Assembly: GCF_009646115.1 (NCBI RefSeq)
Contig: NZ_CP045721.1
Coordinates: forward strand, 186,001 to 250,000
DNA: 64,000 nt
Source of the DNA: Pantoea eucalypti
Lineage (GTDB): Bacteria > Pseudomonadota > Gammaproteobacteria > Enterobacterales > Enterobacteriaceae
Direction of reading: 5' to 3'
Positions 19,836 through 25,180 of this stretch are shown piece after piece. Every line of letters starts with the position of its first letter. Positions within the stretch are counted from its first letter, which is position 1. The position numbers and the translations under genes were made by a program. A model generated the notes under the pieces. It was not told the DNA's origin. It saw only the letters and a program-made list of their open reading frames with translations, and did not search any database.

Positions 19836-20130
19836 CGGGGTATCTATATCGGCATAGACTTCACCGGCGTTGGGCTGGGTGTATATGAGAACGTCAAAGC
19901 ATTTTTCCCGCAGGTGAAGGAGTTTGTCTATAACCCAAATGTTAAGAACACCCTGGTGCTGAAGGGTTACGACACCATCGCCAGCGGGCGGCTGGAGTTT
20001 GACGCCAGCCGCAGCGAAGGAGTCAGCCACGGCGATTTAGCCTGGGCGACCATGCACGCGCTGGCAAACGAGCCGCTGCAGGGACAGGCGGCACACACGC
20101 AGAATGCAGAACATTGTGGAAATTTACTGA
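19836..20130 (+). pseudogene. P2-type terminase large subunit (gpP), C-terminal remnant
   Basis: The frame reads IGIDFTGVGLGVYENVKAFF, then LVLKGYDTIASGRLEFDA, then SRSEGVSHGDLAWATMHAL and NEPLQGQ. These are the nuclease-domain and C-terminal blocks of P2-like gpP. Between GRLEFDA and SRSE about 30 codons of the family (the FMSIR... segment) are missing, apparently an internal deletion. Near 20108 the family ending moves to another frame (NIVEIY-stop, TGA at 20128-20130), one more indel. The TGA overlaps the portal ATG, as in intact P2-type P-Q operons. Confidence 0.75.
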
Positions 20131-21163
20131 TGAGCAAACGCAGTAACCGCATCCGCTCGTAGCCCATGCCGCGGCCGGATAACATGACCAGCGGGGCAGC
20201 GTCGGAGGCTTTTACCTTTGGCGACCCGAACCCGGTACTGGACCGCCGCGAACTGCTGGACTACCTGGAGTGTGTTATCAATGATCGCTGGTATGAACTG
20301 CCTGTCAGCGTTGACGGGCTGGCGCGCGCGTTCCGCGCCGCCGTGCTTCACAGCTCACCCATCAGCGTAAAGTGCAATATTCTGGCGAGTACCTTTATCC
20401 CACATCGGCTGCTGAGTCAGCAGGCGTTTAGCCACTTTGCGCTGGATTATTTGATTTTCGGTAATGCCTACCTGGAGAAGCGGACCAGCCGCCTAGGCAG
20501 CGTGCTGAAGCTGGAACCGTCGCTGGCGAAGTTCACCCGGCGCGGACTCGACCTGGACACGTACTGGTATGCGCACTATTGCATTGATACGGAGACGTAT
20601 GAATTTGAGAAGGGCAGCGTGTTTCACCTGATGGAGCCGGACATTAATCAGGAGATTTACGGTCTACCGGGCTACCTGTCGGCTATACCGTCGGCGCTGC
20701 TGAATGAGTCGGCTACACTGTTCCGCCGCAAGTATTACCTTAACGGCAGCCATGCGGGGTTCATCATGTACATGACTGACCCGGCGCAGAGCCAGCAGGA
20801 CGTGGACAATATCCGAGGTGCTATGAAAAGCGCGAAGGGCCCTGGCAACTTCCGCAACCTGTTTATGTACAGCCCGAACGGGAAAAAAACGGCATCCAGA
20901 TCATCCCGCTGTCTGAGGTGGCGGCGAAGGATGAATTTCTGAACATCAAAAACGTGAGCCGTGACGACATGCTGGCCGTGCATCGGGTTCCACCTCAGCT
21001 GATGGGGATTATCCCCAGCAACACGGGCGGGTTCGGTGACGTGGAAAAGGCAAGCAAAGTGTTTGTGCGTAATGAACTCATGCCGCTGCAAAGGCTTTTC
21101 AAAGAGTTAAACAGCTGGCTGGGTGAAGATGTCATCAATTTTGAAGAATATATTCTAAATTAA
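20130..21163 (+). pseudogene. P2-type portal protein (gpQ), broken by a stop and a frameshift
   Basis: ATG 20130 opens MSKRSNRIRS, then an in-frame TAG (20160-20162), then PMPRPDNMTSGAASEAFTF and a nearly full portal sequence (VLDRRELLDYLECV, SPISVKCNILASTFIPH, DYLIFGNAYLE, MEPDINQEIYGLPGYLSA). At an A7 tract (20883-20889) the frame is lost; adding one A restores KNGIQIIPLSEVAAKDEF and continues to NSWLGEDVINFEEY. So it is a recent, two-lesion pseudogene. Together with the terminase fragment this is all that remains of a P2-like prophage on this side. Confidence 0.85.
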
Positions 21164-21202
21164 GCATGACGGGGGACTAAACCCCCGTCATAAAAACATG
21201 AA

Positions 21203-22789
21203 TTATGAACGCAGGTAGTTTAGCATTTTCATATATTCCTCTACCTTTCCCTGCCATATTTTACTCCCATCGCCTATCACATCAGTAATGTTGCGAAACA
21301 ACAAATCACCAGCATCTTTTATTTTTTTTATATCTTGTACGCCTTCTGGTAAGAAATCGGTCATATGCATGTCAATGCTGGCTTTTTTTGTCTTAAAAGA
21401 AGAGTCGCATTCAGAGCAATAATCTATAAATTGGTTAATAGAAACATTCTTTTCTCTGCACATTCCTAATAAGTGCTCTAAACCATCGATAGTAATATAA
21501 TAAACGCGACTTAGAGGAATGGGTATAACCCCATACTCCTGAATGAGTTCCTCGCTCAATGATTGATAAATTAATGACTCAACATCGGTACCAGTTGAAA
21601 GATAGTGGTCTCTATGTACAACTATAATGATGGATTTTTTCTTGCAAGAATCAATCAACCCTGAACTCAAAAGATTAAAAGCAGTGTGCTGACCCTGAAA
21701 GATACCTTTAATAAAGCTGGATTTTAGCCTTTGCCTTAATCGCTCCGGGTCACTAGTGGTTTTAATGTACGGAGCAGGCTCAATAGCCTTACAATCTATT
21801 AGAGTAAAACCTTCATCCTCATGAATCAGAAAATCAACAGATTTACCATCTAACCCGTGAGTTTTATACAATTTTTTTATGTCATTTTCCCTAATAAAAC
21901 CATAACCGTAGTGACTAAAGACATCAGCAGTATATGCTTCAAGGGCTGTTCCGAAAGCAACCTTATAATCTTCTTTGAAATGGCTCTTAAGTATTTCCGG
22001 CACTAAGTTTACTAAGCCTGCTTTCAAGATTTTTTTTGAAAGTACAACCAATCCATCTTCTGCAAGAAATGCAGGTTTTCTTAACATAGGGGTATCTTCA
22101 TAATATTCAATGGTGAGGTTTTTATTTAATTTAAAATCTGCCATGAAATTTCTAAGACCCTCAGGCATGACAGTAATTAGATCGAAAAACCTTTTAACCT
22201 GCTCAATGCCAATCAATGGAGCCCAATGAAGAATGAAAAGCTTATGAGGGAAAATCTCAGAGTCATTTCTTTTATTTATTGAGGATAGAATAACGAAGTA
22301 GCTCGCCATTCGGTAGTAATTACTAAGGCTGAGTCCTGTAATTTCAAAAAATCTATCATTAAAATATAAGTCATCACCATACCAAATATACTGCCTAATT
22401 AGAGATGCATAATTAAACTTGTCTGTGTGCTGATAAAGAAACTGATTTATCATCAGCCTTCTAATACCTAAAACCAAATTACTTTCCGAGTTAAGATTAG
22501 ATGCTTCCGATTGAAGATCGTAGATTCTATTCACTATTGAAATGAAATCTGAATAAGACATGCTTTTTGCATCTCTATTTTCTATATTTGAAAACTTCCA
22601 CTTCAATGCAAGAAAACAACACCATGGGAAATTGGCAGCTATTCCAGAATGTTCATCACGAAAAGAATGGAAGTGCCTGTAAAAGTTTGTGATAAAGTCG
22701 CAATCATTAAATCTAGCCAGTTTTTTCTTTATGGCATCAACTTTCAGAGAGTATGAAATAGGAGTTAAAGTTTTTACTCTGATTGACAT
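21203..22789 (-). CDS. PD-(D/E)XK nuclease-like protein in a P2 cargo position (candidate anti-phage gene)
   Basis: A 528-residue protein of unknown family. ATG 22789 is chosen because AGGTGG lies five bases upstream; an in-frame ATG 16 codons earlier lacks a site. The N-terminal 270 residues are helix-rich with many aromatics and show no motif I know. Residues about 279-337 carry a PD-(D/E)XK signature: Glu284 in FGTALEAYTADVF, Asp319 in GKSVDFLIHEDEG, and Asp332-Cys-Lys334 in FTLIDCKAIE. The gene is intact, visibly more AT-rich than all its neighbours, and sits 40 bases from the portal gene in convergent orientation, which is where P2-like phages carry defence cargo. Nuclease-based phage defence is an inference. 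Confidence 0.6.
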   Translation of the reverse strand: MSIRVKTLTPISYSLKVDAIKKKLARFNDCDFITNFYRHFHSFRDEHSGIAANFPWCCFLALKWKFSNIENRDAKSMSYSDFISIVNRIYDLQSEASNLNSESNLVLGIRRLMINQFLYQHTDKFNYASLIRQYIWYGDDLYFNDRFFEITGLSLSNYYRMASYFVILSSINKRNDSEIFPHKLFILHWAPLIGIEQVKRFFDLITVMPEGLRNFMADFKLNKNLTIEYYEDTPMLRKPAFLAEDGLVVLSKKILKAGLVNLVPEILKSHFKEDYKVAFGTALEAYTADVFSHYGYGFIRENDIKKLYKTHGLDGKSVDFLIHEDEGFTLIDCKAIEPAPYIKTTSDPERLRQRLKSSFIKGIFQGQHTAFNLLSSGLIDSCKKKSIIIVVHRDHYLSTGTDVESLIYQSLSEELIQEYGVIPIPLSRVYYITIDGLEHLLGMCREKNVSINQFIDYCSECDSSFKTKKASIDMHMTDFLPEGVQDIKKIKDAGDLLFRNITDVIGDGSKIWQGKVEEYMKMLNYLRS

Positions 22790-23074
22790 TTTCCACCTAA
22801 CTAGTGCTGTAAGTGCCTGAGATTTTATTGTAAGCAAGTTATATACGATGATTTAACATTCAAGCCAAAAAAATTGGCTCTTTAATATAAATACCCTCAG
22901 CGCGCGCTCGTAGCCCCGCCACGCCTGCCCGCTTTATGGAGTGGTTTTCATGCACCTGCATGACACAAACAAAAGCCCGCCAGTACTGGCGGGCCGGAGG
23001 GTAAACGATCTTTGTGGGATCATGCGGATTCATGCAGCATAGACATGCACATGGCTAAAGCGCGCTGAGATCAC
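22790..23074. other. Phage-derived non-coding flank
   Basis: No ORF. Base composition shifts from AT-rich (to about 22890) to GC-rich. The GC-rich part (from about 22897, GCGCGCTCGTAGCCCCGCC onward) with the palindrome at 22975-22994 resembles the non-coding end region next to gene Q in P2-like phages, possibly including a relic of the cos area. Low certainty. Confidence 0.35.
22969..22995 (-). terminator. Strong hairpin terminator
   Basis: GCCCGCCAGTACTGGCGGGC (22975-22994) is a perfect 20-base palindrome; on the minus strand it is followed by TTTTGTTTG. It would end transcripts from the toxin/immunity pair before they reach the AT-rich gene. Confidence 0.75.
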
Positions 23075-23413
23075 TCAAAACTTCGACAACTCTGAGGAAT
23101 GGCCGTTAGCGTGAAGGTGTTCGATCACTCTTTCCTTAACGATACTGAGCCATTGCGCTGCTGTCATATCCCATCTGTCCGGTGCAAAGTCATACCTGTA
23201 CCGGTCGGAAAAAACCTTTAGGCCATCAGATTCCTGTTCAAAATCCTGAATATTAGCCAGTAGCATTCTCAGATTGACAGGGTTGGAAGTGGCAAGATAT
23301 TCATTTAGCAGGTTATCAAAATCACAATCAGGGTCGAAAATATCACAATCCTGACCATAATACGCCACAACGAGATTATCCATCTCGCAAGATTTAGTCA
23401 TATCAGTATCCAT
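23075..23413 (-). CDS. cdiI: CdiI-type immunity protein
   Basis: A 112-residue acidic cytosolic protein. YYGQDCDIFDPDCDFDNLLN and the later RYRYDFAPDRWDMTAAQWL match the CdiI_2 family of contact-dependent inhibition immunity proteins (initial Y..QD motif, D-F-D-L segment, C-terminal W.L.). AAGGAG lies directly before the ATG. It begins 8 bases after the reconstructed end of the CdiA-CT toxin frame, the standard toxin-immunity order. Expected role: binds and blocks the cognate RNase toxin delivered by neighbours. It is intact although its toxin gene is not, so it could act as an orphan immunity gene. Confidence 0.8.
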   Translation of the reverse strand: MDTDMTKSCEMDNLVVAYYGQDCDIFDPDCDFDNLLNEYLATSNPVNLRMLLANIQDFEQESDGLKVFSDRYRYDFAPDRWDMTAAQWLSIVKERVIEHLHANGHSSELSKF

Positions 23414-23421
23414 ATAACTCC

Positions 23422-23985
23422 TTATGGCGTAGGAAACGCAGTAACAAGATAATATTGCTTACCATTGAAAGTCGTGGGCCTGATGACTATTCGGACACCA
23501 TAGGCTTTCTTAACCTCTGCCGCCCCCGCTCAATGTATGTACCGATCGGAAAATTGAACTTGTGCGCATAAACAAGTGTGGTGCGTGCATGTGAATACTT
23601 CAAAGCATACTCAATCTGTGTTCTTTTAACAGATAGCACTTCAGATATGACCAGCTCTGCCTGCCTGAGATTTTTGAAGCTACTAGATACATGGGGCGCG
23701 CGGGGTTCTGAAAAACGGGCAATCAGTTGTTCCGGTGTCCTTCCTACGTGACGCGCAATCGTATGTCCCAGCACTCCGCCCTCATGCTCAGTCAGCCTGA
23801 TACGGCCAGAATACACCGAAGCAACTCTTGCAGCACCCGCGGCTGAGGCGAAAATAAAGGGTACGGCAAGATCAACGGTTACCCCTACTTTGTAAGCTGT
23901 AGCATAATCCGCCCCTAACTCACCCGCCGCAATTTCAGCTACTACGGCGCCTTCGCCAGCGCGTTTCCCCAGGGTTTGCCGGTGG
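23422..23985 (-). pseudogene. Orphan CdiA-CT toxin fragment, RNase A-like domain, frameshifted
   Basis: Reading leftward the frame is open from the junction (about 23985): GEGAVVAEIAAGELGADYA, VDLAVPFIFASAAGAARVA, then LTEHEGGVLGHTIARHVGRT, matching the bacterial RNase A-like CdiA-CT family (EHEGG...GHT..RHVG with the catalytic His/Arg). At a run of five C (23523-23527, G on the coding strand) the frame shifts; adding one G restores GAAEVKKAYGVRIVIRPTT and YYLVTAFPTP up to a TAA at 23422-23424. That tail carries the second catalytic segment (TA(Y/F)P). As written, the protein ends early at 23487 without it. No CdiA filament or CdiB gene is present, so this is an orphan module. Confidence 0.75.
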
Positions 23986-25180
23986 GTATCGGCTCAGGTT
24001 TGCTTTTTACCGGCAGGCAGGGGATGCGCTGACCTTTGCGACCATCACCGATCGCGGACCGAATGCCGACTCGCCTGATAGGGGTAAGAAAGAGTCAAAA
24101 ATTTTTGTCACGCCAGATTTCGCCCCATTGCTGATGAATATTCGTGTACAGAACGGCAAAGCCGAAGCCACGGATGCCCGACCGTTGCATGACGATAAGG
24201 GCAACGTAAACGGATTGCCGTTGCAGGATGGCGTCATCGGAGCAACCAATGAAATCGCATTAAGCGATACGCTGAAAGTGCTGCAGGGAGATAACCGCGG
24301 TCTGGATACAGAAGGCATTGCGCCGGATGGGAAGGGCGGATACTGGCTGTGCGATGAGTATGGCCCGTTCCTGATTAACGTTGATGAGCACGGTAAAATT
24401 CTGGCGATGCATGGCCCTCAGGCAGCAGACGGTGAAAAATCCATCACGGGCGGACTGCCGAACATACTCAAATGGCGTCAGCCTAATCGTGGTTTTGAGG
24501 GAATCACCCGCATGCCAGATGGGCGAATCATCGCTGCGGTGCAGTGCAGAGCACGCTGGATATCGACGGTAAAAGTAAAAAGCAGGCGCGCTTTACACGG
24601 CTGGTTAGCTTCGATCCGGCGACCGGAAAAACCGCGATGTATGGTTACCCTATCGACGGCGAGGCTTACAGTAAAAACAGTGATGCAAAAATTGGCGATA
24701 TCGTGGCGATCGACAATCAGCATCTTCTGCTGATAGAGCAAGGCACCAACAAAAATGACGCGATGCGTAACCTTGTCTACAAGGTAGATTTGCGTCCGGC
24801 TACCGAGCTTTCAGCATTTGATAAGCCTGGCGACGGAGTTCGACGACGAGAAAACGCTGGCGCAGCGCGGTATTAAGCTCGCAGCGAAATCGCTGGTGGT
24901 CGATTTACGTCAACTCGGCTGGCAGCAGGAAAAGGCCGAAGGACTGGCATTGATCGATAATAGAATGCTGGCGGTCACGAATGATAACGACTTCGGTGTG
25001 AAAGCAGTCATGCAAAATCCGGTTGAAGGCAAGAAGCGCAAAGATTATCGGGTGACGGATCAGGGGACACTGACGGTAGATGATAAGCCGGTGGCCACGA
25101 CAATCGGCCTGAAGCCGCTGAAGAAACCTGAGGTGGATAGCGAGTTGTGGATCGTAACACTGGCGGAACCGCTTAAATAA
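23940..25180 (+). pseudogene. Esterase-like activity of phytase family protein, 5'-truncated and frameshifted
   Basis: Segments in order are YYGAFASAFPQGLPVGIGSG, then TFATITDRGPNADSP, DTEGIAPDGKGGYWLCDEYG, GFEGITRMPDGRIIAAVQ, FDPATGKTAMYGYPID and VDSELWIVTLAEPLK. They form one esterase-like/phytase-type beta-propeller protein but in several frames, with shifts near 24020, 24540 and 24825. The signal peptide and first part are missing; homology begins exactly where the divergent toxin frame ends. The function of the parent family is a secreted or periplasmic hydrolase-like protein. Confidence 0.75.

Follow-up and report, generated by a model that had tools for sequence, protein, structure and literature searches.

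In P2-like phages of Escherichia coli, a hotspot that adjoins cos and is flanked by gpA and gpQ has been described; it houses old-tin along with many further systems (Rousset et al. 2022, PMC9122126). The founding paper of the GapS1 family is that of Mahata et al. 2024 (doi 10.1038/s41564-024-01840-5, cited in PMC12774648), the title of which names the family for Gamma-Mobile-Trio elements. One sentence of a conference report describes Klebsiella pneumoniae GAPS1 as protective against many phages (PMC12908700), and the authors of Phold mention a GAPS1-like protein in the Klebsiella prophage ST437-OXA245phi4.1 (PMC12774648). Here we analyze a gapS1 gene in a stretch of 64,000 nucleotides (the window) from the 4.8 Mb genome of Pantoea eucalypti, a plant-associated bacterium. 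Our reading is that it probably encodes a single-gene GapS1 anti-phage nuclease carried as cargo of the gpQ-gpA hotspot. We put the probability at roughly 0.85, a value that covers family identity, slot and nuclease-based defense jointly, with substrate and trigger outside it. The reading draws on a profile match, conserved residues, a predicted fold, the hotspot position and a step in nucleotide identity.

The locus is a remnant of about 3.2 kb of a P2-like prophage, of which the gene A side and the remainder are gone. Its features, and the layout of the GapS1 protein, are as follows.

19845..20105, plus strand: 3' fragment of gpP, the P2-type terminase large subunit (tblastn; Terminase_6C)
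20130..21163, plus strand: P2-type portal gene gpQ, broken over two frames, with phrog_68 in both pieces
21165..21192, no strand assigned: terminator-like hairpin of 11 pairs, 7 of them G-C, between the convergent portal gene and gapS1
21203..22789, minus strand: gapS1, encoding a GapS1-family protein of 528 residues (open reading frame, NCBIfam NF047931.1, conserved residues, structure model)
22894..23050, no strand assigned: conserved cos-proximal element at the right edge of the remnant, with nucleotide matches in P2-like prophages
GapS1 residues 1 to about 225: N-terminal half, predicted to be mostly helical
GapS1 PD-(D/E)XK half: predicted nuclease part with E284, E301, D319, D332, K334 and Q365

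The initial annotation had described a decayed terminase and portal followed by an intact gene for 528 residues that faces the portal at a distance of 40 bases, and this description agrees with our analysis. The terminase fragment is truncated and has suffered an internal loss, with 87 codons aligned by tblastn to residues 470-583 of 588 (Terminase_6C in Pfam, 29.9 bits, cut-off 22.6). The portal gene has a stop near its start and is split over two frames, and its pieces are 80.5% and 64.8% identical to an E. coli P2-like portal in tblastn. On the minus strand, the gapS1 frame runs uninterrupted from its ATG at 22789 to a stop at 21203, with AGGTGG directly 5' of the ATG. The two genes are convergent, and 39 bases separate the portal stop, which ends at 21163, from gapS1. 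Given its orientation toward the portal and the terminator-like hairpin at its end, gapS1 may be transcribed on its own; we offer this as a guess, since a scan for promoter-like sites 5' of gapS1 on the same strand found none. Across the 2 kb scanned, terminator-like sites number 5 against 1.5 expected (sd 1.1), and promoter-like sites 2 against 7.5 by chance.

The gene looked new because Pfam and PADLOC were blank for its product (0 families each at E up to 1) and its PHROGs family, phrog_14259 (E 1.5e-28), is unnamed. In NCBIfam, however, the protein matches antiphage_GapS1 (NF047931.1) over model positions 1-455 of 455 with 492.6 bits against a cut-off of 320 (E 1.1e-147). By this profile match, the window gene belongs to GapS1, which NCBIfam already lists as an anti-phage family, and the idea of a gene of unrecognised family is ruled out. 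The proposal of an anti-phage gene therefore stands as a candidate function through family membership, but the word "new" does not. The related remark that part of the protein matches nothing known holds for Pfam and PADLOC and fails for NCBIfam and phrog_14259. Identity with P2 OLD, with its ATPase-Toprim homology, was likewise rejected, as neither Pfam nor PADLOC returned a family at E up to 1.

The GapS1 model is matched at E 0.001 or better by all 16 aligned sequences (the window's included), two of which fall under the cut-off (G814 with 272.7 bits and G665 with 166.9 bits). RefSeq names four of six E. coli relatives gapS1 and the other two hypothetical. When the 16 members were searched, PADLOC returned just two families with one weak member apiece, Pfam TPD was weakly matched by four members (best E 0.00087), and the remaining Pfam matches were single and weak. 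The window protein resembles described GapS1 in that the full model length is matched and the active-site residues are common to other members; it shares 41% identity with a Klebsiella copy located among conjugative-element genes and 49-50% with E. coli copies. Whereas the founding family is named for Gamma-Mobile-Trio elements, the window copy sits in a P2 hotspot. The GAPS1-like protein of ST437-OXA245phi4.1 is also a homologue (23.5% identical) in a Peduoviridae phage, but it adjoins an integrase gene outside the Q slot.

Placement of the gene in the P2 cargo slot was borne out on both sides. The Q side and the conserved far-side element are present in the window, where gene A is lost, and another Pantoea species (G002) has a P2-like prophage with a 95.5% identical GapS1 between the portal and A. 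In that prophage, the terminase, portal, capsid and A genes are matched near full length, and gene A is present both there and at locus L040. The far-side element is also matched in E. coli H19 and at L019, L040 and L043; its limits come from a query starting at 22860, with matches at query positions of about 35-191. We infer from its position that the element holds cos. Some part of 22860-23420 is matched in 46 of 61 genus genomes (the window's own included), mostly within 22894-23050 and in some cases over just the first 65 bases or so of the element; in G035, G036, G058 and G060 the matches fall in an immunity gene beyond 23050. The window's own genome (G000) contains a second P2-type portal, 70% identical, at G000:C1:1794579-1795424, accompanied by a match to the far-side element at G000:C1:1796433-1796580.

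The Pantoea slot resembles the E. coli hotspot in its place beside the portal, its common far-side flank and its interchangeable AT-rich cargo, and the window differs in its Pantoea host and in the loss of the A side along with the remainder of the prophage. We compared the portal-to-element stretch in 15 other Pantoea prophages, which are 15 of the 16 places with a portal of at least 76% identity, with the window and G002 kept apart and G053:C110 excluded for a weak far-side match. Two stretches are nearly empty (179 and 182 bases; GC 0.59-0.62) and 13 are filled with 1.2-3.3 kb of other cargo at GC 0.34-0.41, which accords with the earlier statement that genes beside gpQ are interchangeable. 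The gapS1 gene, with a GC content of 0.347 against 0.503 in the whole window, had rightly been called AT-rich relative to its flanks. However, all 13 filled slots are also AT-rich, so AT-richness is a property of the slot's cargo and does not set gapS1 apart. PADLOC and Pfam searches covered 10 of the 13 filled slots (all but L069, L071 and L074), with one ORF apiece. PADLOC gave four strong matches, all to known or candidate defense proteins (LmuB, PDC-M38A, RmrA and PDC-S42), two weak ones and none for four. The cargo ORFs L060:655-1518, L064:437-1132, L065:1888-2766 and L070:2302-3432, which have no PADLOC or Pfam match at E 0.001, are candidates for unknown defense genes.

An orphan pair of contact-dependent inhibition toxin tip and immunity genes, both on the minus strand, separates the remnant from the next host gene, with the CdiI_2 immunity family at 23075-23413 (Pfam, 61.6 bits, cut-off 26.7) and a CdiA-CT RNase A domain at 23487-23816 (Pfam, 69.7 bits, cut-off 27). 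The host gene to the right of the remnant (24128-25180, plus strand) is apparently split over several frames, and a second stretch of the same genome (G000:C2:297964-298725) is 85% identical to it. The host flanks are approximately 210-230 bases apart in G034, G059, G057 and G002, and the remnant together with the toxin-immunity pair therefore occupies a place that is empty there. In G050 and G019 the same flanks are separated by approximately 3.4-3.5 kb, so insertions may be more frequent at this place. We considered and rejected the idea that the remnant is a prophage in its own attachment site, because the flanks lie so close together in the first four relatives, the left edge of the remnant falls within the terminase gene, and the prophage of G002 occupies a different contig.

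Comparison with the G002 prophage points to exchange of the gapS1 cassette. Approximately 10% of bases differ between the two portal genes, and synonymous distances of 0.42 and 0.75 in the first and second portal pieces contrast with only 0.072 in gapS1. The rise in identity is abrupt and falls near 21084, within the terminal part of the portal gene: the preceding 60 bases contain 11 mismatches and the following 60 contain 1. Recombination in the portal's end is the simplest reading of this step. From these alignments, the gapS1 cassette was probably swapped between related P2-like phages by homologous recombination at that point, and the last 80 or so bases of the portal gene would travel with the exchanged cassette, with the border near 21084.

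The survival of gapS1 beside decayed phage genes had been taken as a hint of selection to keep it. The dN/dS of gapS1 between the window and G002 is 0.28. When changes were placed on branches with three outgroups (3 changes not placeable), the window branch carried 10 changing and 11 silent changes, which departs from the neutral ratio (p 0.0011), and the corresponding counts on the branch of G002 were 13 and 10 (p 0.0099), although these counts are small and the window branch includes time before the decay. The two prophages show no difference in the pattern of change in gapS1 (p 0.76). Private changes in the portal number 14:32 for the window, compared with 13:122 for four pooled relatives (p 0.0014), which shows that the window portal is under relaxed change. 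Taken together, the relaxed portal and the sister-like gapS1 only suggest that gapS1 has been kept by selection since the prophage decayed; under neutrality, 1.27 stops would be expected since the decay and the probability of an intact frame is 0.28.

That last value is what one would cite for the opposite view, in which gapS1 is a passenger that has been in the remnant too briefly to decay and has no present function. The cassette may postdate the decay, which would also suit this view. Set against it are the departure of the window branch from neutrality, which the G002 branch shares, the excess of private changes in the window portal, and the approximately 20 changing changes that would be expected in gapS1 since the decay if the portal-based estimate holds, all of which depend on dating the decay from one gene. 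We regard a young passenger as a possible account with a minority share of our confidence. Our view of retention is also tentative: a slot-dwelling GapS1 clade may move from one Pantoea phage to another as a cassette with the portal end, and the gene may be kept after prophage loss as domesticated immunity.

The nuclease signature that had been pointed out (Glu284 and Asp319 together with Asp332-x-Lys334) is found at those positions and is invariant or nearly so in the alignment. D319, K334 and E301 are invariant across the 16 aligned sequences (the window's included), in which identity goes down to 18%, and E284, D332 and Q365 are nearly invariant. These residue numbers count the initial Met and are one higher than in P0001, which is without it. 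On our reading, the putative catalytic residues E284, D319, D332, K334 and Q365 may serve as the criterion that defines GapS1. A model built by AlphaFold2 from ten sequences (pLDDT 79.6, pTM 0.81) contains a helix at 252-293 with E284, strands at 298-300, 320-324 and 327-334, a helix at 348-376 with Q365 and a strand at 384-391, and it places strands at D319 and at D332-x-K334. The helix-strand-strand-helix order as modelled is the usual order of the restriction-endonuclease core, and the predicted structure fits such a core, in agreement with the PD-(D/E)XK fold that had been proposed.

Upx bears a PD-(D/E)XK domain, and it is the best solved match to the GapS1 model in Foldseek (9wuf, E 2.4e-4), the sole one at 0.001 or below among the 254 listed; the runners-up are Nt.BspD6I (E 0.019) and HindIII (E 0.028). 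Upx has 1212 residues against 528 for GapS1, the alignment of 486 columns gives a TM of 0.30 by query with an rmsd of 10.7, and the family profile had no hit among PDB sequences. No match was found in BFVD at E 0.001. Upx is counted among anti-phage systems in passages of PMC12629846 that give no mechanism. The N-terminal half of GapS1 folded alone gave a weak model (pLDDT 67, pTM 0.48), which matched none of the solved folds (best E 2.3).

Based on this predicted architecture, GapS1 may act as a single-protein defense in which the helical N-terminal half recognizes some sign of infection, the PD-(D/E)XK half then cuts nucleic acid, and the cutting blocks the infecting phage. The sensing role is a guess, because the N-terminal half matches no solved fold. 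We lean toward DNA as the nucleic acid that is cut, the better-ranked solved matches being mostly DNA nickases and restriction enzymes, although these are themselves weak (E 0.019 or worse). The other option is cleavage of RNA or tRNA, with growth arrest by abortive infection, in place of phage DNA cutting. In its favor, some PD-(D/E)XK enzymes act on RNA, and the cyclic-oligonucleotide-activated nucleases Cdn1 and Can2 appear in the Foldseek list at E 0.066-0.19; we consider RNA cutting the less likely option. If gapS1 is transcribed on its own, a nuclease of the proposed kind may still act after the phage is lost.

GapS1 is sparsely distributed. Matches over the cut-off were found in 3 of 61 genus genomes, in 7 of 394 genomes of the order sample (10 at E 0.001) and in 2 of 369 genomes of the class sample (6 at E 0.001), the window's genome included in each, and a nucleotide search of E. 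coli found gapS1 in at least 6 of 5426 genomes. A contig scan with the single protein as query found no relative. We examined 25 homologue loci for P2 genes, 24 by tblastn and L003 by annotation, after excluding L028 (a 51-bit match) and L035 (which shares a contig with L020); inspection of the neighborhoods set aside H2-H5, H37, H39, H41, H43, H45 and, among weak loci, L011-L013 and L018. A portal gene adjoins gapS1 at three of the 25 loci, namely the window, L019 (from G002) and L040. L038 has only the portal end beside gapS1, with no other P2 gene matched, and L043, whose contig ends inside gapS1, has only the side of gene A and the far-side element. Thus five of 25 loci show the P2 slot or part of it and the other 20 lie elsewhere, so the expectation of homologues beside gpQ is true of the slot clade and not of the family. 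The full-length slot copies (window, G002, L040 and L038) form one clade with L039 (support 100/100). Outside the slot, L032 lies among conjugative-element genes, L033 on a plasmid, and L029-L031 in what look like E. coli islands; the L003 copy neighbors an integrase gene in a Klebsiella phage of the Peduoviridae. Away from gapS1, gene A is matched at 30% in L024 and the capsid gene at 26% in L034, and at the other loci the scanned neighbors do not name the place. The five slot loci and the single slot clade would suit a protein with some other role for the phage (exclusion only of related P2-like phages, or lysogeny or packaging via the nearby cos, with broad defense as a side effect), but this is improbable given the homologues on conjugative, plasmid and island DNA, the Klebsiella phage copy that sits elsewhere than the slot, and the 15 other Pantoea prophages, whose slots are empty in 2 and otherwise filled in 13 and in whose genomes gapS1 was not found and is therefore not needed.

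Both the GapS1 family and the P2 type of hotspot are known already, and the gapS1 gene of the window is a good fresh example that opens no new kind of immunity. It places GapS1 among the defenses traded by P2-like phages in the gpQ-gpA hotspot and extends that hotspot to Pantoea, where several unnamed cargo genes are open to testing. The remnant also offers one case for following the fate of a defense gene after prophage loss, with a portal that is decaying and a neighbor that apparently is not.
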